Positions 13,723 to 21,113 of a stretch of 37,837 nt of DNA are shown here, piece after piece. Numbering within the stretch: the first letter of the stretch is position 1; the number at the start of each line of letters is the position of its first letter. Source of the stretch: a virus; the IMG/VR virus record IMGVR_UViG_3300025641_000023, positions 1 through 37,837 of that record. One strand, given 5' to 3'. Made by a program: the position numbers and the translations under genes. Under the pieces are notes generated by a model. It was not told the origin of the DNA, searched no databases, and worked only from the letters and a program-made list of their open reading frames with translations.

Positions 13723-14113
13723 CTTCAGCTTGCTCTTCGTTACTGCTTTCGGAGATGACAGTAGTCTCTCCGCCCACTCCGGTAATCGAGATGTTGATTC
13801 CACCTTTACTTCCTCCTGCCTTGTCCTTATCAAAGTAGCTTGCAGGGAGGACTCTATCTATGACTAGCTTCCAAGCCGCTGCCTGATTCTTATGGTCATC
13901 GTTAAGAGCTGCATCAAAGATAGACTCCAACACTCTGGCTGACTTAGGGGACGTTAGCATCCTAGTCTTATATTCGTTGATGATAGCTGCATCACCTTTG
14001 GGACGACCACGGGTTCCTACTGTGCCACGCTTACGGTTGACCATCTCTGACTTAGGTGGCCTCCCTCTGCGCTTAGGTTTATCCTTGACATCGTCGTTTT
14101 TTAAATCTGACAA
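13700..14113 (-). CDS. AT-hook protein, putative small terminase subunit
   Basis: 137 residues. Two AT-hook-like motifs lie near the N-terminus (PKRRGRPPK and GTRGRPKG), followed by a helical region (LTSPKSARVLESIFDAALND, AAWKLVIDRVLP) and an acidic C-terminus (SSNEEQAEDGEF). Position first in the late operon ahead of the large terminase, size, and DNA-binding character point to the small terminase subunit, but no diagnostic motif proves it. The start is TTG at 14113, supported by AAGGAG seven bases upstream; the SD is part of a TACTAAGG leader repeat. Confidence 0.6.
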   Translation of the reverse strand: MSDLKNDDVKDKPKRRGRPPKSEMVNRKRGTVGTRGRPKGDAAIINEYKTRMLTSPKSARVLESIFDAALNDDHKNQAAAWKLVIDRVLPASYFDKDKAGGSKGGINISITGVGGETTVISESSNEEQAEDGEFIDI

Positions 14114-14129
14114 AAAACTACTCCTTAGT

Positions 14130-14141
14130 ATACTTAAGTAT
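14130..14141. promoter_or_regulatory. Operator-like dyad in late leader (proximal to first gene)
   Basis: Perfect 12-bp palindrome atacttaagtat. It has the same half-sites (ATACT...AGTAT) as the promoter dyads, with TA instead of AT at the centre. It lies about 20 bases upstream of the first late gene. Confidence 0.6.
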
Positions 14142-14195
14142 TCTTTGGTGTTCCTTAGTAAATACTCCTTCTACAAACATTAAGCCTTTACCTTA

Positions 14196-14211
14196 GTATA
14201 CTTAAGTATAC
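14196..14211. promoter_or_regulatory. Operator-like dyad in late leader (16 bp)
   Basis: Perfect 16-bp palindrome gtatacttaagtatac containing ATACT-TA-AGTAT at 14198-14209, flanked on both sides by CCTTAGTA. It lies about 65 bases downstream of the expected late start site, so it could be a second protein-binding site or an RNA hairpin. Confidence 0.65.
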
Positions 14212-14266
14212 CTTAGTATGTTTCCTTAGTAGTTGCTGTAGGAGCTTTTCTTTAGTAAATTAAACT

Positions 14267-14308
14267 ATACTATAGTATTATTATAACATATTCTTAGGCA
14301 AATGTCAA
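14267..14308 (-). promoter_or_regulatory. First late promoter with operator-like dyad
   Basis: On the minus strand TTGACA (14308-14303), 17-bp spacer, TATAAT (14285-14280): a perfect consensus sigma-70 promoter. The palindrome atactatagtat (14278-14267) begins one base after the -10 and covers the expected start at about 14273. It would drive the late operon leftward through a leader of about 160 nt. The layout suggests strong host-polymerase transcription held off by a repressor until late, or controlled by a phage factor. Confidence 0.88.
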
Positions 14309-14357
14309 GCTTTATTTTAACTAATTTAGTAAAAGCATTAAAGTAATTACCTTAGTA

Positions 14358-14811
14358 CCCGCACGTACCCGCTTTTGCCCAATAAAATCAATGACTTAGG
14401 CTTACTTATGTATACATGAGATACTTACCTTTAATGTTACTTTTGGTAACCTTTTGTATTGTCTTTTTATTGACTTTTCACTCTTTTTTGTATCTGAGCG
14501 GTTACCGTGACAATCCTGCGCATCCCACGCGCCCCCCCGCCCCCTTGTAAATCTCTAGCATACCGGCAGCCTGATGTCAAATCTAATGGTGACCAAGTAG
14601 TCGATAGTAGTCACGGGAAAACATTAGTAAACCCTTGACAGCACGGGGGTGAGTGTGCTAGCGGGTACCTATTGGCCACAACAATTGACAATAGTAACCA
14701 ACTATGCTAGGCATTCACGGGGATAATAATAGTTGACACGGGTTGTATGTTTGTGGTATTCGCACGCGCCCGCCCTCTCCTTTAACCGTGAAAATAAATT
14801 GAAATAAGGGG
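14358..14811. other. Non-coding region with CACGGG and GC-rich repeats, candidate origin
   Basis: No credible ORF. CACGGG recurs at 14612, 14642, 14716 and 14737, interleaved with three TTGACA hexamers at 14635, 14685 and 14733 (spaced 50 and 48 bases) that lack convincing -10 elements. A GC-rich element beginning cacgcgccc occurs twice (14526-14544 with C7 and C5 runs, and 14763-14775). Iterated short repeats next to AT-rich stretches between divergent operons are where a replication origin would be expected. Inference only. Confidence 0.4.
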
Positions 14812-14839
14812 TTGCACCTATGGATAACATCTGTATAAT
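14812..14839 (+). promoter_or_regulatory. Early promoter candidate
   Basis: TATAAT at 14834-14839 with TTGCAC at 14812-14817, 16-bp spacer. The -10 is perfect and the -35 weak. It faces the early genes and precedes the structured leader. No ATACT dyad is present, unlike the middle/late promoters. Confidence 0.6.
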
Positions 14840-14845
14840 AGACGG

Positions 14846-15163
14846 CAAGCAAGGGGGGAACGGCCTCTCAGATTGATACCTAGCTTCAGCAGTCACCACG
14901 GTGGCTTATAGGCTGAAGACGAGGAGGACAGTCCCCTAAGCTCCCCGCAATAGCGGGTTGAATCTCAGGCTTGTAAGCCGTGGCAATAGCTGAGCAGATA
15001 CCTATCCTAAGCGGGCATTATTGAATAACCTAAGTTGCAACGGGTTAGCCTAGAAAACCTTTCGGGGTATGGTGTAGGGCGTTAAAACCACCGCAATCAC
15101 GGGTTATTCTTTAAAGGGCATTGGTTACAGTGTCTTTTAATGAATAACTAAAAGGGTCAAACA
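14846..15163 (+). ncRNA. Structured leader, candidate non-coding RNA
   Basis: About 320 nt without an ORF between the early promoter and the first early gene. Nested helices are visible: GGGGA (14855-14859) with TCCCC (14932-14936); CCTC (14864-14867) with GAGG (14921-14924); CTTCAGC (14884-14890) with GCTGAAG (14912-14918); and CACC with GGTG (14894-14903). Next come CCCGC-aata-GCGGG (14944-14957) and CTCA (14964-14967) with TGAG (14991-14994), enclosing GGCT/AGCC (14968-14979). It is more GC-rich than the neighbouring intergenic DNA. It does not fit a tRNA, tmRNA, group I intron or RNase P RNA that I can recognise. Confidence 0.5.
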
Positions 15164-15565
15164 ATGAAGCATTTTAAACACTCCTATGAGGAATTGCACA
15201 AGGTAGGCCAGCGGTATTATTCAGATACCGGCTTTTGCGCAGTGATAGCTACAGCGGTTGCCTGTGATATATCCTTTGGCAAGGCGCTGAGCTTTAGTAA
15301 GAAAGCGGGACGCAAACACCGCAAGGGTTCAAGCCTAGCAATGATTCACAGTATGATGGCACTAGGTGGAAAGAAGATGACACCAGTGGATAACTTTGGA
15401 GCGACACTGACAACTAGTGAGCGACACGCCCCCAAGACTGGACGTTATATGTTCTTAGTTAGAGGACACGTTGCAGCAATGCGGGACGGAGTATTAGAGG
15501 ACTGGACAAGCGGCGGCAATAAGCGTAAAATCCTAGTAACTTATAAAATTGAAGATTGGAAATAA
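15164..15565 (+). CDS. Putative papain-like cysteine peptidase-fold early protein
   Basis: 133 residues and the first early gene. TGFCAVIATAVACDISFGKA places Cys25 at the start of a helix. GRYMFLVRGHVAAMRDGVLE gives His102, followed by EDW with Asp113, and Gln16 lies nine residues before the Cys. This order (Gln, Cys on a helix, His on a strand, then Asp/Asn) is that of papain-fold peptidases and C39/NlpC-type enzymes. The protein is basic in the middle (KKAGRKHRKGSS) and has no signal peptide, so it would act in the cytoplasm. First-expressed phage genes often target host functions; activity here is unproven. Confidence 0.55.
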   Translation: MKHFKHSYEELHKVGQRYYSDTGFCAVIATAVACDISFGKALSFSKKAGRKHRKGSSLAMIHSMMALGGKKMTPVDNFGATLTTSERHAPKTGRYMFLVRGHVAAMRDGVLEDWTSGGNKRKILVTYKIEDWK

Positions 15566-15572
15566 ACCAAAC

Positions 15573-15586
15573 GCCCCGCAAGGGGC
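15573..15586 (+). promoter_or_regulatory. GCAA-capped hairpin between early genes
   Basis: GCCCC-GCAA-GGGGC, a five-pair GC stem with a GNRA tetraloop, seven bases after the first early stop. No U run follows, so it is more likely an mRNA stability or processing element than a terminator. Confidence 0.55.
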
Positions 15587-15606
15587 AAACCTAAGAGGTG
15601 ATTGAG

Positions 15607-15831
15607 ATGGCAGAATATAACGATGGTTCGGGAAGATGGCACAGTGAGACAATTGAGCGCCTATTGGACGTAAATAGTGATGCGCTGTGCTATATGATTT
15701 TAGACTGTAAACGGGCGATGGTGGCAATGCCTGAAAATCCTAAGTGCGGTGAGTACGCGGATACAATACACTATGCGGGTATGGCTTTAAAACAAAGGGG
15801 CGAACGCTATATCCCACCAGTAGAAAGTTAA
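15607..15831 (+). CDS. Small early protein of unknown function (74 aa)
   Basis: 74 residues, MAEYNDGSGRWHSETIERLL at the N-terminus, helical, with three cysteines spread through the chain and no membrane segment. ATG 15607 is preferred over an in-frame GTG at 15598, because AGAGG lies eight bases before the ATG. It lies between the papain-like gene and the promoter of the GP88-like gene. No family is recognised. Confidence 0.65.
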   Translation: MAEYNDGSGRWHSETIERLLDVNSDALCYMILDCKRAMVAMPENPKCGEYADTIHYAGMALKQRGERYIPPVES

Positions 15832-15840
15832 AATAAATAG

Positions 15841-15875
15841 TTGATTTAACTATGCCGGTGTATATAATAGCCGGT
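15841..15875 (+). promoter_or_regulatory. Promoter for GP88-like gene with GCCGGT repeats
   Basis: TTGATT (15841-15846), 16-bp spacer, TATAAT (15863-15868). Two direct repeats of GCCGGT, extended GCCGGTGTA and GCCGGTATA, begin at 15854 and 15870 and bracket the -10, a possible binding site for a separate regulator. No ATACT dyad is present. Confidence 0.7.
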
Positions 15876-15914
15876 ATACTCAAAATAACTAGCAATCACT
15901 ACAGGTAGAACAAT

Positions 15915-16583
15915 ATGACACAGTTAAACGCTAAACCACGATTCAGTAAGCCTAGCAAAATGCCGTGCCGTTCGTGGTCTCTCGAAGCTCTCGACACTTG
16001 CCCCGCTAGTATGTCAGAGGGCGAGCTAGTCGACGCCTGTAAGGGTTGCTATGCTACGACAGGGTTCTATGCTATGCCGAACGTTAAAGAGCCGAGAGCG
16101 CATAATAAGGTAGACTGGCAAGCGTCCGACTGGACTGACGTTATGGTAGCAGAACTGGACAATGACAGATATTTTAGATGGTTCGACAGTGGCGACGTCT
16201 ATCACATAGGACTAGCGCAAAAGATACTCGAAGTTATGCAGCGCACTCCGTGGTGTAACCACTGGCTACCGACTAGAATGCACAAGTTCGACAAGTTCGT
16301 GCCAGTCCTCGACTCTATGAATGAATTACCGAACGTGGTAGTTCGTCTATCTAGTGACAGCGTTACAGGTGAGATAGTCGAAGGCGCGGCCAATAGCTCG
16401 ACTATCATACCCACTGTTTCTCATAGTCTCCCCTCTATGTCAGTATGCGAAGCGTACGACCGTGGCGGCAAGTGCAAGACGTGCCGACTGTGTTGGTCTA
16501 AAGATGTTGCTGTAGTGGCGTATCCTGCCCACGGTAAAAAGATGATAAAACATATTGACAGCATAGCGGCTATCAACTTATAA
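15915..16583 (+). CDS. GP88-family protein, cysteine-rich
   Basis: 222 residues. The pattern matches what I recall of the phage 'gene product 88' family: PCRSWSLEALDTCP, CKGCYATTGFYAMPNVK, RYFRWFDSGDVYH, WLPTRMHK and VVVRLSSDSVTG. Cys18, Cys29, Cys42 and Cys45 lie near the N-terminus, and a second cluster near the C-terminus reads CEAYDRGGKCKTCRLCW. The layout suggests an iron-sulfur or zinc site, with some likeness to radical-SAM barrel proteins but no canonical CxxxCxxC. The function of the family is not established. It has its own promoter directly upstream. Confidence 0.7.
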   Translation: MTQLNAKPRFSKPSKMPCRSWSLEALDTCPASMSEGELVDACKGCYATTGFYAMPNVKEPRAHNKVDWQASDWTDVMVAELDNDRYFRWFDSGDVYHIGLAQKILEVMQRTPWCNHWLPTRMHKFDKFVPVLDSMNELPNVVVRLSSDSVTGEIVEGAANSSTIIPTVSHSLPSMSVCEAYDRGGKCKTCRLCWSKDVAVVAYPAHGKKMIKHIDSIAAINL

Positions 16584-16613
16584 TCAGGCATTCAATAAAA
16601 GAGGTGGTATAAG

Positions 16614-16790
16614 ATGACTAGTAATGGTTTTACAGCCCATCAAGAGGGCAAATTTATAGCGGACAATTCGGCAGACTGGGCAGACGTGCGCGAGATGTTA
16701 CAGGCGCGGCATCTGGTAAACGAATCAGCAGAATTTAAAACCGCCGTATTCAACGCGGTGGTATCAATCAAACAAAGTGAGGTGGCATAA
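16614..16790 (+). CDS. Small early protein (58 aa)
   Basis: 58 residues, MTSNGFTAHQEGKFIADN at the N-terminus, mostly helical. The ribosome site GAGGTGG lies about seven bases before the ATG. Its stop is one base before the next ATG, so it belongs to a compact run of tiny early genes. It uses GCG codons for Ala more freely than the late genes. Function unknown. Confidence 0.6.
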   Translation: MTSNGFTAHQEGKFIADNSADWADVREMLQARHLVNESAEFKTAVFNAVVSIKQSEVA

Positions 16791-16791
16791 T

Positions 16792-16950
16792 ATGAACAGT
16801 GCAAAGCGTAGACAAGTACGAAGAGAGGCGCGTCGAGAGGCGCGCAATAACCTAGCCGTCGAGGTGTTCGGTTGGTCGGTTGTAATACTAGGGGCGGCAG
16901 TAACAGCTAAATTTATGTATACTGCGCTCGTTTATATAATGTTATTCTAG
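16792..16950 (+). CDS. Small membrane protein, early (52 aa)
   Basis: 52 residues. A very basic N-terminus (MNSAKRRQVRREARREARNN) is followed by one or two hydrophobic segments (VFGWSVVILGAAVTAKFM, ALVYIMLF). By the positive-inside rule the N-terminus is cytoplasmic. Its ribosome site GAGGTG is in the end of the previous gene. Early phage membrane peptides often alter host membrane processes; nothing more can be said. Confidence 0.6.
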   Translation: MNSAKRRQVRREARREARNNLAVEVFGWSVVILGAAVTAKFMYTALVYIMLF

Positions 16951-16964
16951 TAGGAGGTTATACA

Positions 16965-17090
16965 GTGTTTATGTTATCAGATGCTGATTTACGTGCATAT
17001 TTTGAAGGTAGCGGAGTTACAGTCTATCAATTATCTGTAATGACTGGAAAGCCAATTGAGGATATTAAAAAAATAGTAGGGGTTTTATAA
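16965..17090 (+). CDS. Very small protein with HTH-like helix pair (41 aa)
   Basis: 41 residues from GTG 16965, chosen because AGGAGG (16952-16957) lies seven bases upstream, whereas the in-frame ATG 16971 is 13 away. The C-terminal VTVYQLSVMTGKPIEDIKKI resembles a short helix-turn-helix (helix, G turn, helix). It could bind DNA but is too short for a confident domain call. It ends one base before the next start. Confidence 0.5.
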   Translation: MFMLSDADLRAYFEGSGVTVYQLSVMTGKPIEDIKKIVGVL

Positions 17091-17091
17091 A

Positions 17092-17214
17092 ATGAAAAAT
17101 TACAAGTACAGTAGAATTATAGACTTAGTGCTGTTATTTTGTGCGGGTATGGTAGGTGGTGGTTTAGTTACCGCGGTATTGATACAAGCCTACAGAGCAT
17201 TTACAGCGGTTTAA
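17092..17214 (+). CDS. Very small single-span membrane protein (40 aa)
   Basis: 40 residues. A basic N-terminus (MKNYKYSRIIDL) precedes a hydrophobic helix (VLLFCAGMVGGGLVTAVLI) and a short polar tail. The Gly-rich helix suggests packing against another helix. The upstream region ends in a G-rich stretch (AGGGG) usable as a ribosome site. Function unknown. Confidence 0.55.
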   Translation: MKNYKYSRIIDLVLLFCAGMVGGGLVTAVLIQAYRAFTAV

Positions 17215-17286
17215 TGGTTAGCCTATAGGGTAGCATGGGTTACCCTGTTAAAAGGGCTTAGAATTGATTATATGAGGATTTACGGT

Positions 17287-17439
17287 ATGACTTACGCAGA
17301 GTTTAAAAAAGAGCATGATAAATTAGTTACTGATATTATATTTACAGAGTCAAAGCATTCTGATACACTGGTAGAACGTTTGGAGCGGTTACGCTTAGAC
17401 AATGAGAAACATTTTAACCGACTATGGGCGGATTTATAA
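17287..17439 (+). CDS. Small helical protein (50 aa)
   Basis: 50 residues, MTYAEFKKEHDKLVTDIIF, then LVERLERLRLDNEKHFNRLW: charged, fully helical, likely a short coiled coil. GAGGA lies seven bases before the ATG. The 72 bases upstream (17215-17286) contain only a small hairpin (GGGTA/TACCC). Function unknown. Confidence 0.55.
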   Translation: MTYAEFKKEHDKLVTDIIFTESKHSDTLVERLERLRLDNEKHFNRLWADL

Positions 17440-17588
17440 TGTCAGATAAAGAGAATAGCGTAGGGAATTGGAGAAGTCACATACTTGTAAAATGTCTTGA
17501 CTGCGGGAAACCAATGGGTTATCATACAGGCTCAAAAGTTGAAATATGTGTTGATTGTACTTTAAAAGGATACGGGGAAAAAAAATGA
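17439..17588 (+). CDS. Small zinc-ribbon-like protein (49 aa)
   Basis: 49 residues starting in a TAATG overlap. KCLDCGKPM and EICVDCTLK give two CxxC pairs spaced for one zinc ion (Cys19, Cys22, Cys37, Cys40). It ends in an ATGA overlap with the next gene. Zinc ribbons of this size often contact nucleic acid or polymerase, which makes it one of several candidate regulators in the early region. Confidence 0.6.
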   Translation: MSDKENSVGNWRSHILVKCLDCGKPMGYHTGSKVEICVDCTLKGYGEKK

Positions 17589-17863
17589 ACGATTATAGAT
17601 GCGGAGTAAGTGAAGAGGATGCAAGAGACCCACATTTTGACGGACTATCGGACGCGGAAGAGAGAGAGTTGGCACTACAGGCGCACATTGACCGGCGCGA
17701 GACTTTAAAGGCCATAGTAGCGGCCACGCAGGAAAAGATAGATAGACTGTTAAAGTTTGCTAATTTTTCGCCAGATGCTGAGGATATTGAGGCCGCAGAG
17801 ACGTTGGACGACTGTATGGACTTCTACATATATAAATTTATATTGAAAGATAGAGAGGTTTAA
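17585..17863 (+). CDS. Acidic helical early protein (92 aa)
   Basis: 92 residues from ATG 17585, MNDYRCGVSEEDARDPHFDG at the N-terminus, acidic and mostly helical (ERELALQAHIDRRETLKAIV). An upstream TTG at 17555 would place most of the extra codons inside the zinc-ribbon gene and has no ribosome site. The ATGA overlap makes 17585 more likely. Function unknown. Confidence 0.6.
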   Translation: MNDYRCGVSEEDARDPHFDGLSDAEERELALQAHIDRRETLKAIVAATQEKIDRLLKFANFSPDAEDIEAAETLDDCMDFYIYKFILKDREV

Positions 17864-17864
17864 A

Positions 17865-18002
17865 ATGATTACAGATAATACTACAGAGAACGACCTACTA
17901 GCGGAGACCATAGAAGAGTTAGGTCAGAGCCTAACGGAATTGCAGCAGGTTATAAACGATATTAAAGAGCAGGTAAACTATAGACCAGAGGAAACAGCAT
18001 AA
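17865..18002 (+). CDS. Very small acidic coiled-coil protein (45 aa)
   Basis: 45 residues, MITDNTTENDLLAETIEELG, then LTELQQVINDIKEQVN with regular hydrophobic heptads, so probably a short coiled coil. GAGAGG lies about seven bases before the ATG. Its stop overlaps the MazG start (TAATG). Possibly a partner of a neighbouring protein; function unknown. Confidence 0.55.
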   Translation: MITDNTTENDLLAETIEELGQSLTELQQVINDIKEQVNYRPEETA

Positions 18003-18334
18003 TGACAACGTATTACAGATTAGAGCAACAGATTATCGACTGGCACAACGCACGCAACCTGATTGAGGGCAGTACAGACCACCAACAGTTCGAGAAGCTG
18101 CTAGAAGAGGTAGAAGAGCTACGGGTCAACATAGAACACAGTCAAGACTTTAGCGATGACGTAGGCGACATCTTGGTAGTGCTGATTAATCTATGCGAGC
18201 GACACAACTTAACATTGACGGACTGTATGAACGTAGCCTATAATGATATTAAGTACCGCACAGGAAAAATGGTGGACGGTTTATTCGTGAAGGATTTAGT
18301 GGACGACAGCGGGAGAATTACAGATGCAGTTTAA
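18002..18334 (+). CDS. MazG-like nucleotide pyrophosphohydrolase
   Basis: 110 residues, all helical. LLEEVEELR supplies Glu35, Glu36 and Glu39, and SDDVGDILVVLINL supplies Asp53 and Asp56: the EExxE...DxxD magnesium site of all-alpha NTP pyrophosphatases. The tail DIKYRTGKMVDGLFVK matches phage MazG-like proteins. The enzyme hydrolyses NTPs or dNTPs to monophosphates. Phage versions have been linked to nucleotide recycling. Here the gene precedes replication genes and a class II RNR, which fits a nucleotide pool role. Confidence 0.8.
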   Translation: MTTYYRLEQQIIDWHNARNLIEGSTDHQQFEKLLEEVEELRVNIEHSQDFSDDVGDILVVLINLCERHNLTLTDCMNVAYNDIKYRTGKMVDGLFVKDLVDDSGRITDAV

Positions 18335-18524
18335 TATAGCAGGTATGTTTTTAAACGTAGAACCACGGTTCGGCATTGGGTTAGACATAGAGAGCGTAGA
18401 GAGCCGACCAGTATGGACAGTAAAGGACGGAGAGTTAGGCACTATGGCTTTCGATGGATTGGTATTGCTATTGCCCTTCTTTATTGTTACACTAGGCAAC
18501 GTATGGACGGAGGTAGACGAATGA
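18324..18524 (+). CDS. Small membrane-associated protein (66 aa)
   Basis: 66 residues, MQFNIAGMFLNVEPRFGIGL at the N-terminus, with a hydrophobic stretch FDGLVLLLPFFIVTLGNVW near the C-terminus. It overlaps MazG by 11 bases and ends in an ATGA overlap with the next small gene. GGGAGAA precedes the ATG. Function unknown. Confidence 0.55.
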   Translation: MQFNIAGMFLNVEPRFGIGLDIESVESRPVWTVKDGELGTMAFDGLVLLLPFFIVTLGNVWTEVDE

Positions 18525-18613
18525 TATTGACAATATTTTTAACAGGTATAATCCTATGCCTAGGCTATGGCATCAAAGAAACTATGGAGCATTGGGACAA
18601 TGAGCAAGATTAA
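18521..18613 (+). CDS. Tiny membrane peptide (30 aa)
   Basis: 30 residues, MILTIFLTGIILCLGYGI, then a polar tail KETMEHWDNEQD. One N-terminal hydrophobic helix is followed by a charged end. GGAGG lies seven bases before the ATG, one of the best ribosome sites in this region, and argues against a longer in-frame start at 18413. Function unknown. Confidence 0.55.
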   Translation: MILTIFLTGIILCLGYGIKETMEHWDNEQD

Positions 18614-18824
18614 AGAACAACTGATTGGATACGAGCAGAACGACTGGATTAGTAATGACGACCACGTTAGAGTCGACGAAGTAACGGAGTACCTATTGTA
18701 CGCTATGAGCGTAGCAGAGATGCAACAGGCCGCTAAACAGCACATACAGCACGACCTGTACACCATGGCGCGTAGCGACTTCGAGAAGGTACATTATGAC
18801 ACTATAGGAGTGCATACAAAGTGA
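18600..18824 (+). CDS. Small helical early protein (74 aa)
   Basis: 74 residues from ATG 18600, MSKIKEQLIGYEQNDWISND at the N-terminus, mostly helical with many charged residues. An upstream ATG at 18567 would overlap the preceding peptide by 47 bases. ATG 18600 leaves 14 and has GGAG upstream. Its stop overlaps the GTG of the next gene. Function unknown. Confidence 0.6.
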   Translation: MSKIKEQLIGYEQNDWISNDDHVRVDEVTEYLLYAMSVAEMQQAAKQHIQHDLYTMARSDFEKVHYDTIGVHTK

Positions 18825-19009
18825 GTAGATGCAAAGCGTGTGACGCTATTATGACTGAATCAGAGTTAAAGAGGATTGACTACAACACTGGGGAGCATTT
18901 AGATTTATGCTACGAGTGCATGGTTGAGAGTGAAAGAGCAGTAAGAGACAGTGAAGTAGAAGAAGTATTGGATTTAAGTGAATTAGGGTTTGACATCAGT
19001 AACAATTAA
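18821..19009 (+). CDS. Small zinc-finger-like protein (62 aa)
   Basis: 62 residues from GTG 18821 (GTGA overlap). CKACDAIM and DLCYECMVE give CxxC pairs around a short loop, as in a treble-clef or ribbon finger. The rest is acidic (EVEEVLDLSELGFD). Its last codons contain the replication promoter, including the whole -35. It is a candidate transcription regulator because of the finger and its location, but this is inference. Confidence 0.65.
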   Translation: MSRCKACDAIMTESELKRIDYNTGEHLDLCYECMVESERAVRDSEVEEVLDLSELGFDISNN

Positions 19010-19031
19010 TGATATAATATTACTATAGTAA
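18990..19031 (+). promoter_or_regulatory. Replication (middle) promoter with operator-like dyad
   Basis: TTGACA (18990-18995), 17-bp spacer, TATAAT (19013-19018): perfect sigma-70 consensus. The palindrome ttactatagtaa (19020-19031) starts one base after the -10, the same geometry as at both late promoters. A TACTAAGG element follows at 19058-19065. It would drive the ssDNA-binding protein, primase-helicase, polymerase and downstream genes to the terminator at 27476. The 101 bases 19010-19110 are otherwise non-coding. Confidence 0.9.
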
Positions 19032-19110
19032 GTTATTTAGTTAGTGCAGTAGCAGCTTACTAAGGTAAACTAAAGTATAATTCAGCAACAATAACATAGA
19101 GAGAAACGAT

Positions 19111-19479
19111 ATGAGTCAGGTATTAGAAGGTACAGTAGCATTTGAGAACTTAACTGAGCATGAGATGTACAACGGACAGTCCACAGGTAAATACTCCTTG
19201 GTGTTGTCTTTAGATGAAGGTGATGCGGATAGCTTGGACTCCTTGGGTGTCAAACTACGCGAGTACGAAGGAACAAAGCAACGTAAGTTTGCCAGTAAGT
19301 TTGAGGTCGGTATCCTGAATGCGGACGGCACACCATTTGCAGGTCGAGTACCGCGAGGCTCTAAGGTTCGTATCTTGTGGCAGGAAGGCGCACCACATCC
19401 AGTACACGGCACTAGCACCTACCTTAATAAGGTCAAGGTGTTGGAAGTAGCTGAGCAGGAAGAGGTAGCCGACTTCTAA
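19111..19479 (+). CDS. Single-stranded DNA-binding protein
   Basis: 122 residues with an OB-fold-like strand pattern (VLEGTVAFENLTEHEMYNGQ, TGKYSLVLSL, FASKFEVGILNADG, STYLNKVKVLEV). The acidic C-terminal tip EQEEVADF ends in Asp-Phe, as in T7 gp2.5 and other SSBs, where it recruits polymerase and helicase. It is the first gene behind the replication promoter and is coupled to the primase-helicase (TAATG). The identification rests on fold pattern, tail and context. Confidence 0.8.
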   Translation: MSQVLEGTVAFENLTEHEMYNGQSTGKYSLVLSLDEGDADSLDSLGVKLREYEGTKQRKFASKFEVGILNADGTPFAGRVPRGSKVRILWQEGAPHPVHGTSTYLNKVKVLEVAEQEEVADF

Positions 19480-21113
19480 TGAAAACAGAGTCAACCTTTC
19501 TAAAGCATGAGCCATGTCCGTCATGTGGCTCAGGCAACAATCTAGCAAGGTACTCAGATGGTCACGCACACTGCTTCACAGCGGGATGCGGACACAGAGA
19601 GAGAGGCAACGGAACTGCCTCAGACTTTGCTCCAAGTCAACCAACCAGAGCGTATGAGATGACAGGAGTTATAGCAGCAATACCGGACAGGAGAATATCA
19701 CAGAAGATTGCACAGAAGTTTGGTGTAACAGTTGAGTTCTCTCCGGAAGGTAAGATAGTAAAACACCACTACCCTTACTACGATAAGGACAGTAACAAGC
19801 CTACAGGGTCAAAGGTCAGGCAGGTAGAAACTAAAGGATTCTACGCCACTGGTAACTTTGACAACGTAGGATTGTTTGGACAGCAGGCAAGCAGGGACGG
19901 TGGGAAGTACATCACCATCACGGAAGGTGAAGCGGATGCCTTAGCAGTTAGTGAGATGTTCGACGGCAAATGGCCTGTAGTGTCTATTAGGTCAGGCGCA
20001 GCGGCAGCAGCTAAGGACATCAAAGCCAACTTAGACTGGTTAGAAACCTTTGATAACATTATTATCTGTTTTGATAATGATAAGGCAGGACAGGAGGCAG
20101 CTCAGTCAGTGCTTGGTTTGTTCACACCTAACAAAGCTAAGAACGTAGTTCTGCCCTTGAAGGACGCAGGGGATATGTTGAAGGCTAACAAGGTCAGAGA
20201 CTTTACTGACGCTTGGTGGGACGCTAAAGCCTACAGGCCTGACGGTATTGTCTCAGGGTTGGATACATGGGATATGCTACAGGAACAGAAGGACGTGAAG
20301 TCCATTCCGTATCCTTGGACTTGTCTCAATGATTACACCCACGGCTTTAGACGTAAGGAGCTAGTGACGATAACCTCAGGCTCAGGCATGGGCAAGTCAC
20401 AGATAATGAGAGAGTTAGAGCATTACCTGCTACAGCAAACCGAGGACAACATCGGCATCCTAGCCTTGGAGGAAGACGTACCTAAGACTACGCTTGGTAT
20501 TATGTCTATTGAGGCTAACAAACAGCTACACCTACCGGAGGTCAGAGGTGCGCTTGTGGAAGGAGAGGAACGAGGATACTGGGAGAAGACATTCGGCTTA
20601 GGCCGTGTTCAGTTACTCGACCACTTCGGCAGTACCAGTGAGGATGACCTGCTAGGACGCATCAGGTACATGGCTAAAGGATTAGACTGTAAATGGATTA
20701 TCCTTGACCACCTCAGTATCGTAGTGAGTGACCAGAGCCACGGTGACGAGCGTAAGGCAATCGACAGCATTATGACCAACCTACGTAAGATAGTGCAGGA
20801 GACAGGCATCGGGTTATTCTTGGTGTCACACCTCAGACGACCATCAGGACAGAAGGCGCACGAGGACGGAGGTAAGATTAGCTTAGGAGAGCTACGAGGT
20901 TCAGCGGCTATCGCACAGTTAAGTGATATGGTTATTGGACTAGAGCGAGACCAACAACACGCAGACCCAGAGACACGCAACACTACTTGTGTCAGGGTAC
21001 TGAAGAATAGGTTTGTTGGACTTACAGGTGCTGCCTGCTACCTTTATTACGATAAGGACTCAGGCCGTATGATTGAAACAGCCTGCCCCACTGAAGGTGA
21101 CTCGGAGTTCTAA
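19479..21113 (+). CDS. DNA primase-helicase, T7 gp4-like
   Basis: 544 residues. A zinc-binding domain (Cys13, Cys16, Cys32, Cys37) is followed by a Toprim primase domain with ITITEGEADALAV and IIICFDNDKAGQEA, then a DnaB-type helicase with Walker A SGSGMGKSQ (Lys306), Walker B CKWIILDHLSIVVSD and a late SHLRRPSG motif. One protein both unwinds DNA and makes primers at the fork, as in T7. It overlaps both neighbours by TAATG junctions. It is close in length to T7 gp4 (566). Confidence 0.93.
   Translation: MKTESTFLKHEPCPSCGSGNNLARYSDGHAHCFTAGCGHRERGNGTASDFAPSQPTRAYEMTGVIAAIPDRRISQKIAQKFGVTVEFSPEGKIVKHHYPYYDKDSNKPTGSKVRQVETKGFYATGNFDNVGLFGQQASRDGGKYITITEGEADALAVSEMFDGKWPVVSIRSGAAAAAKDIKANLDWLETFDNIIICFDNDKAGQEAAQSVLGLFTPNKAKNVVLPLKDAGDMLKANKVRDFTDAWWDAKAYRPDGIVSGLDTWDMLQEQKDVKSIPYPWTCLNDYTHGFRRKELVTITSGSGMGKSQIMRELEHYLLQQTEDNIGILALEEDVPKTTLGIMSIEANKQLHLPEVRGALVEGEERGYWEKTFGLGRVQLLDHFGSTSEDDLLGRIRYMAKGLDCKWIILDHLSIVVSDQSHGDERKAIDSIMTNLRKIVQETGIGLFLVSHLRRPSGQKAHEDGGKISLGELRGSAAIAQLSDMVIGLERDQQHADPETRNTTCVRVLKNRFVGLTGAACYLYYDKDSGRMIETACPTEGDSEF

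Follow-up and report, generated by a model that had tools for sequence, protein, structure and literature searches.

The leader at the head of the early operon is, on comparative evidence, a new family of structured RNA represented in about 38 IMG/VR contigs. Its architecture, as read from the alignment, is one of three domains, with a kissing loop that links the first two, a pseudoknot within domain III and, at the end, a hairpin, P10 (Table 1). Domain III sorts with the type of protein encoded by the adjoining gene, which suggests that the leader RNA and this protein work as a pair. The window, by which we mean the whole stretch of 37,837 nucleotides analyzed, is a linear virus record (37.8 kb). 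The minus strand carries a late operon with a large terminase, an SU10-like portal and a major head protein, and the plus strand an early/replication operon with a primase/helicase, DNA polymerase A and ribonucleotide reductase. The nearest relative of the DNA polymerase is that of Pelagibacter phage HTVC103P (52% identity). The leader stands first in the plus-strand operon, where the early and late operons diverge.

The leader spans approximately 14845-15163. The folded segment, 14846-15163 (318 nt), has a predicted energy of -108.2 kcal/mol, compared with -91.2 ± 5.4 for shuffles (z -3.17), and none of 100 shuffles folded as well. The initial annotation had claimed that no ORF is present, and this holds across the family: all three frames are stop-rich in 24 of 24 relatives, and the leader length modulo 3 is not constant among them. 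A conserved ORF was rejected on these grounds. The helices contain 82 G.U cells and 7 C.A cells, an excess which indicates that the plus strand is the functional RNA. The description of the stems as GC-rich stands only relative to the distant AT-rich spacer: the GC content per 100 nt is 0.45-0.56 over 14700-15099 and 0.35 at 15100-15199, compared with 0.27-0.32 at 14100-14499. Covariation, which had been suggested as a check, backs a structured RNA through two-sided changes in the homologous leaders (24 sequences). These comparisons strongly support a structured RNA with a function at the 5' end of the early transcript. The earlier suggestion of a regulatory or decoy RNA survives in part; covariation, the lack of an ORF and the fixed position at the promoter favor a structured, functional RNA, which is likely regulatory, while the decoy role found no support.

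Relatives were collected starting from a protein search of IMG/VR with the first gene, which gave three. A fourth was found with DNA patterns, and the set was extended to about 38 contigs by a primase search and two independent leader motifs. The scan with the second motif added one extra contig only; as far as that collection goes, the set is thus close to complete. The motif spacing is 42 nt in 35 of the 35 contigs obtained with the first motif. In all loci examined, the first ORF downstream of the RNA belongs to the same orthologous family and the RNA ends at its ribosome-binding site; no first gene without the RNA was found among them. The Rfam search proposed earlier matched no family. 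Neither the window nor seven diverse relatives gave a match in Rfam 15 at or above the gathering score, a relaxed search of window positions 14500-15300 returned sub-threshold chance matches only, and four further loci had no match at E up to 1. Because of this negative outcome, we read the leader RNA as new. It was not found in named phages by blastn.

Several other resemblances were discarded. Those to a group I intron, RNase P and tRNA, noticed by eye, have no support from Rfam or ARAGORN. Four matches in bacterial or archaeal genomes have a spacing of 40-49 rather than 42, and the covariance model fails on them; they are ascribed to chance. A 19-mer, AACAGTCCCCTAAGCTCCC, is common to the window and L006, where it lies in a structured phage region. 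Model R1 fails on L006, L011 and L012, so this sharing is probably chance, and 18-mer matches in L008 and L010, which do not align elsewhere, are apparently chance as well. The L006 region itself (L006:1930-2310, in a metagenomic phage contig) corresponds to a structured non-coding region in the Arthrobacter phages Constance/Karkharias (L011:1490-1630; L012:1490-1630), 74% identical over about 116 nt. The copy in the Arthrobacter phages adjoins an HNH gene and, as judged by eye, tRNA-like halves. The L006 region has no Rfam match, and it looks like another undescribed phage RNA.

Table 1. Positions in the window of the promoter, the elements of the leader RNA and the first early gene.
Feature	Position	Strand	Basis or remark
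Sigma-70 type promoter, TTGCAC-N16-TATAAT	14812..14839	+	Sequence; -10 at 14834-14839
Domain I rod	14848..14942	+	Covariation on 24 sequences; P1a-P4 98-100% paired
P1b	14848-50/14940-42	+	Domain I
P1a	14853-57/14933-37	+	Domain I
P2	14864-67/14924-27	+	Domain I
P3	14884-90/14912-18	+	Domain I
P4	14891-96/14901-06	+	Domain I
P4 apical loop, CACG	14897..14900	+	Kissing partner of 14979-14982 (CGUG)
Domain II	14944..15015	+	Covariation
P5	14944-48/15011-15	+	Domain II
P5b	14955-58/15000-03	+	Domain II
P6	14964-68/14990-94	+	Domain II
P7'	14977-78/14983-84	+	Bears second kissing loop, 14979-14982; hairpin proposed by RNAalifold
Domain III	15019..15098	+	Includes variable P9
P8	15026-30/15043-47	+	Domain III
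Pseudoknot	15033-15038/15093-15098	+	Domain III
P10 terminal hairpin, ~17 bp	15102..15149	+	Between RNA and ribosome-binding site
First early gene, 133-aa basic protein, predicted papain-like fold (phrog_3754)	15164..15565	+	Invariant C25, H102, D113; model

The structure was derived by hand analysis and a column-pair scan, and was then tested as written on 24 sequences. The 73 pairs are formed in 95.3% of cells, compared with 33-46% after a shift of one to three columns; this control flatters a structure derived from the same 24 sequences, although double changes are still numerous. Two-sided changes are observed at 50 pairs (29.2 ± 2.6 in shuffles) and the covariation is 0.439 (0.181 shuffled), and on no measure did any of the 500 shuffles reach these values. 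Most of the nested helices are also predicted by RNAalifold. The four-helix rod described in the initial annotation is recovered as P1-P4 with the backing of covariation, and its 14884/14912 stem is P3, which is paired in 24/24 sequences with two-sided changes in six of its seven pairs. The internal loops of domain I (CAGAUUGAUACCUAG/ACGA and UAUAG) are invariant. A hairpin at 14944/14953, also put forward earlier, is possible in the window, and its four inner pairs remain formable in 23-24 of 24 relatives; the closing pair, however, is available in just 11 of them. In the rival helix 14944-14948/15011-15015, all five positions pair in 23-24 of the 24 sequences with two-sided changes at every pair (CUAGC/GCUAG in L111). 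This long-range helix is probably what exists in place of the hairpin.

The kissing loop was absent from the hand-drawn structure and was first revealed by the column-pair scan. It is complementary in 24/24 sequences, which use three combinations (AC/GU, AA/UU and UA/UA), and its covariation is 0.333 against 0.071 in shuffles (0/500 as high). In the L054 clade the P7' hairpin is longer, AAGC[CGUG]GCUU. The pseudoknot joins the loop of the domain III hairpin to the strand just 5' of P10 (covariation 0.421 versus 0.178; 0/500). P8 and the lower part of P10 vary little, and their support comes mainly from pairing and position. The 16 pairs of P10 that were tested are 93% paired, with two-sided changes in 12. 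No U run follows P10 in 23 of 24 relatives, the exception being L119 with a run of five. P10 is therefore not a terminator, as it has no U tract, and is a candidate RNase III processing site.

Segments of the leader are mosaic between phages (L065, L104, L110, L125 and L138). The P10 and ribosome site of L125 are nearly identical to those of L113, and the domain III and protein differ. Judging by such sequences, recombination seems to be especially frequent in the leader. Insertions occur at fixed places in L086:1385-1440, L108 and L073, between P1 and domain II and, as CGGTGATCTTC, in the P5/P5b loop; these places show where the RNA apparently tolerates extra sequence.

The perfect -10 that had been noted ahead of the leader belongs to the promoter in Table 1. 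Most relatives have TTGACA-N16/17-TATAMT at the equivalent place, just upstream of the RNA. In L098, L099, L103, L104 and L110 the upstream DNA differs from the promoter region of the other loci. Conservation runs from just 3' of the -10 box to the ribosome-binding site, and the DNA farther upstream of the promoter is not conserved. In many relatives (L066:1480-1500, L082, L086, L101, L106 and others) a short inverted repeat flanks the -10 hexamer, as in GGCCC-TATACT-GGGC, GCC-TATAAT-AGGC and TGAGTC-GATACAATG-GACTCA. Its letters vary from phage to phage, and it is weak or absent in the window's own clade. This repeat is possibly an operator or a 5' stem. Three more TTGACA-type -35-like elements at 14634-14765, upstream of the leader promoter, could give longer transcripts carrying the same leader.

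Homologues of the first early protein are 32-83% identical to that of the window. All 29 of 29 proteins are strongly basic, with a pI of 9.5-10.3 and a net charge of +9 to +17; most of the window neighbors tested are neutral or acidic. The structure model is confident (pLDDT 90.5). Its matches in the PDB are individually weak (best E 0.08, probability up to 0.96), and the plausible ones are papain-like, namely C39 peptidase domains, PeiR and Josephin. In the model, both the fold and the Cys-His-Asp triad are those of a papain-like cysteine peptidase. Strong matches of the protein are to uncharacterized phage proteins only, a single more remote one bears the name peptidase C39, and no toxin family was found in Pfam or NCBIfam. 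Directly 3' of the gene, at 15572-15587, is a strong GC hairpin, GCCCCGCAAGGGGC, with no U tract after it on the plus strand. The hairpin is also present 3' of the L009 homologue. A weak homologue of the protein occurs in Pakpunavirus phages in a plus-strand operon (L137:828-1279), which starts after a 450-nt non-coding gap that folds somewhat better than shuffles (z -1.8).

Domains I and II are conserved whatever the protein type. Where the first proteins are less than 45% identical, the mean identity is 82% for domain I, 75% for domain II and 50% for domain III. The correlation of RNA distances with protein distances (Mantel-type) is 0.76-0.77 for domain III (0.74-0.81 in a jackknife), 0.17 for domain I, 0.14 for domain II and 0.36 for P10, which is short and a noisier measure (half-half r of 0.57 versus 0.78 for domain III). 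The partial r is 0.72 for domain III versus -0.02 for P10. The nearest neighbor shares the protein type in 22/25 cases by domain III, 15/25 by P10, 13/25 by domain I and 10/25 by domain II. The five types of domain III go with the four protein types in all but one of 25 non-redundant loci, L110, where a gamma domain III is combined with a protein of type 3; L138, an additional locus, shows this combination too. P10, which lies between domain III and the gene, is shuffled among types. L125 has domains I/II and a P10/ribosome site of the L082/L113 kind, and its domain III and protein are both of type 1. Within protein types, P10 matches the protein no less closely than domain III (0.81 versus 0.77), so linkage is part of the explanation for the correlation. 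Between types, the domain III and protein distances correlate weakly (0.18). We consider this moderate evidence that domain III and the first protein recognize each other.

We tentatively propose, with confidence short of even, that the leader is the conserved, tertiary-folded 5' end of the early transcript and the partner of the adjoining gene's protein. The basis is comparative: the RNA, its fold, its place and its sorting with the protein. The leader would be transcribed, the basic papain-fold protein would bind domain III of its own leader, and the near-invariant domains I-II would bind a partner that is constant among phages, such as the host RNA polymerase, the ribosome or a Nus/RNase factor. 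RNA and protein together would control the early operon, most simply by autoregulation of the first gene, and the transcribing polymerase may be modified by them. RNase III would cut P10 and so part the leader RNA from the mRNA. Several points count against this proposal. The closeness of domain III to the gene contributes shared descent through linkage, L110 and L138 depart from the match of types, and papain folds are not known among RNA-binding antiterminators. No boxA-like element is conserved, and a search of the plus strand over 13800-19500 gave no transcription terminator.

The closest parallel in arrangement is phage lambda. In lambda nut, boxA is the constant part, for host factors, and boxB the protein-specific part. 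Lambda N is disordered and arginine-rich, whereas the first protein here has a predicted papain fold. The series pL-nutL-RNase III site-N shares with the leader a host promoter, a structured RNA, a processing hairpin (a putative one here) and the gene of a presumably cognate basic protein, and one part of the RNA is constant and another, in the leader only presumably, protein-specific. According to PMC5725501 (which cites Wilson 1997 and 2002), nutL is situated some 200 bp 5' of N, and N with Nus factors bound at nutL represses N translation, with modulation by RNase III. The leader differs in being a tertiary-folded RNA of about 300 nt rather than two short elements. A conserved boxA (CGCTCTTTA-like) was not found in it, the best matches being scattered with 2-5 mismatches to the 10-mer. 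We regard the arrangement as lambda-like by analogy and unrelated; lacking boxA and having an unrelated protein, it is not filed as a nut member.

It is rather unlikely that the RNA acts alone and in cis, through put-like antitermination on the host RNA polymerase or through protection or timing of the early mRNA, the match of domain III with the protein then reflecting linkage and breakpoints between domains II and III. Such breakpoints do occur (L065 and L104), the linkage effect is seen within protein types, the most conserved part (domains I-II) starts at the early operon promoter, and no single-subunit RNA polymerase gene was found among the proteins scanned. HK022 put is about 70 nt long, consists of two stem-loops and needs no protein. 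By description, it is like the leader in being a structured RNA with which an early operon read by the host polymerase begins, but the leader has three domains and a coupled protein. An RNA acting alone is further opposed by P10, which is nearer the gene than domain III and yet tracks the protein type worse, and by the plus strand downstream, where no transcription terminator was found to 19500 (13800-19500 searched).

Action in trans is unlikely too. The RNA, processed at P10, would form a stable ribonucleoprotein with the papain-fold protein, and would either hold it inactive as a type III/abiF-like antitoxin or carry it to a host target via domains I-II. Domain III does match the protein, and the invariant Cys-His-Asp suggests that the enzyme is active and that restraining it would be worthwhile. 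The order of promoter, pseudoknotted RNA, hairpin and gene of a cognate, presumably RNA-bound, basic protein is that of type III modules (ToxIN, CptIN and TenpIN) and abiF, and the phage-borne abiF RNA binds its protein directly and thereby neutralizes it, both in cis and in trans (PMC12373285). However, the leader RNA is much more complex than these; tandem RNA repeats, an intrinsic terminator between RNA and gene (P10 lacks a U tract in 23 of 24 relatives) and a ToxN-like endoribonuclease were all absent, and the protein is papain-like, not ToxN or Abi_2. An addiction module would also be needless for a lytic early gene.

A ligand-sensing, riboswitch-like RNA, or an ornate self-assembling one in which complementary loops join molecules into a multimer of the GOLLD/ROOL/OLE type, is improbable. 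The leader's size, kissing loops, pseudoknot and conserved internal loops would suit it; GOLLD, ROOL, OLE and raiA have a similarly elaborate fold with kissing loops, GOLLD and ROOL are phage-borne, and the kissing loops of these two join chains (PMC12286853). The leader, however, is about half the length of GOLLD/ROOL/OLE or less, matches no covariance model of these or any other Rfam family (window and seven relatives), has no tRNA neighbors, and is always the leader of one gene rather than a tRNA-island gene. That the conserved object is DNA (an origin, packaging or recombination site) is barely credible: the divergence of the early and late operons would be a fitting place, but the asymmetry of 82 G.U versus 7 C.A cells rejects it in favor of a plus strand pairing as RNA, and conservation starts just after the -10 box.

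Taken further, the pairing of leader and protein could make up a new phage RNA-protein control element, a possible but doubtful reading. Domains I-II would be a constant platform binding a host machine, domain III an exchangeable adapter with its cognate papain-fold protein, and the ribonucleoprotein would, as infection begins, reprogram transcription or translation in the host. No described RNA from this marine phage group was found, and the leader adds to the group a well-supported RNA family that is complex enough to merit a solved structure. The pattern of a constant platform and a matched domain offers a directly testable explanation of the way in which phages that have no evident RNA polymerase of their own may take over host gene expression, and it supplies a candidate partner for a widespread papain-fold phage protein family that has had no function.
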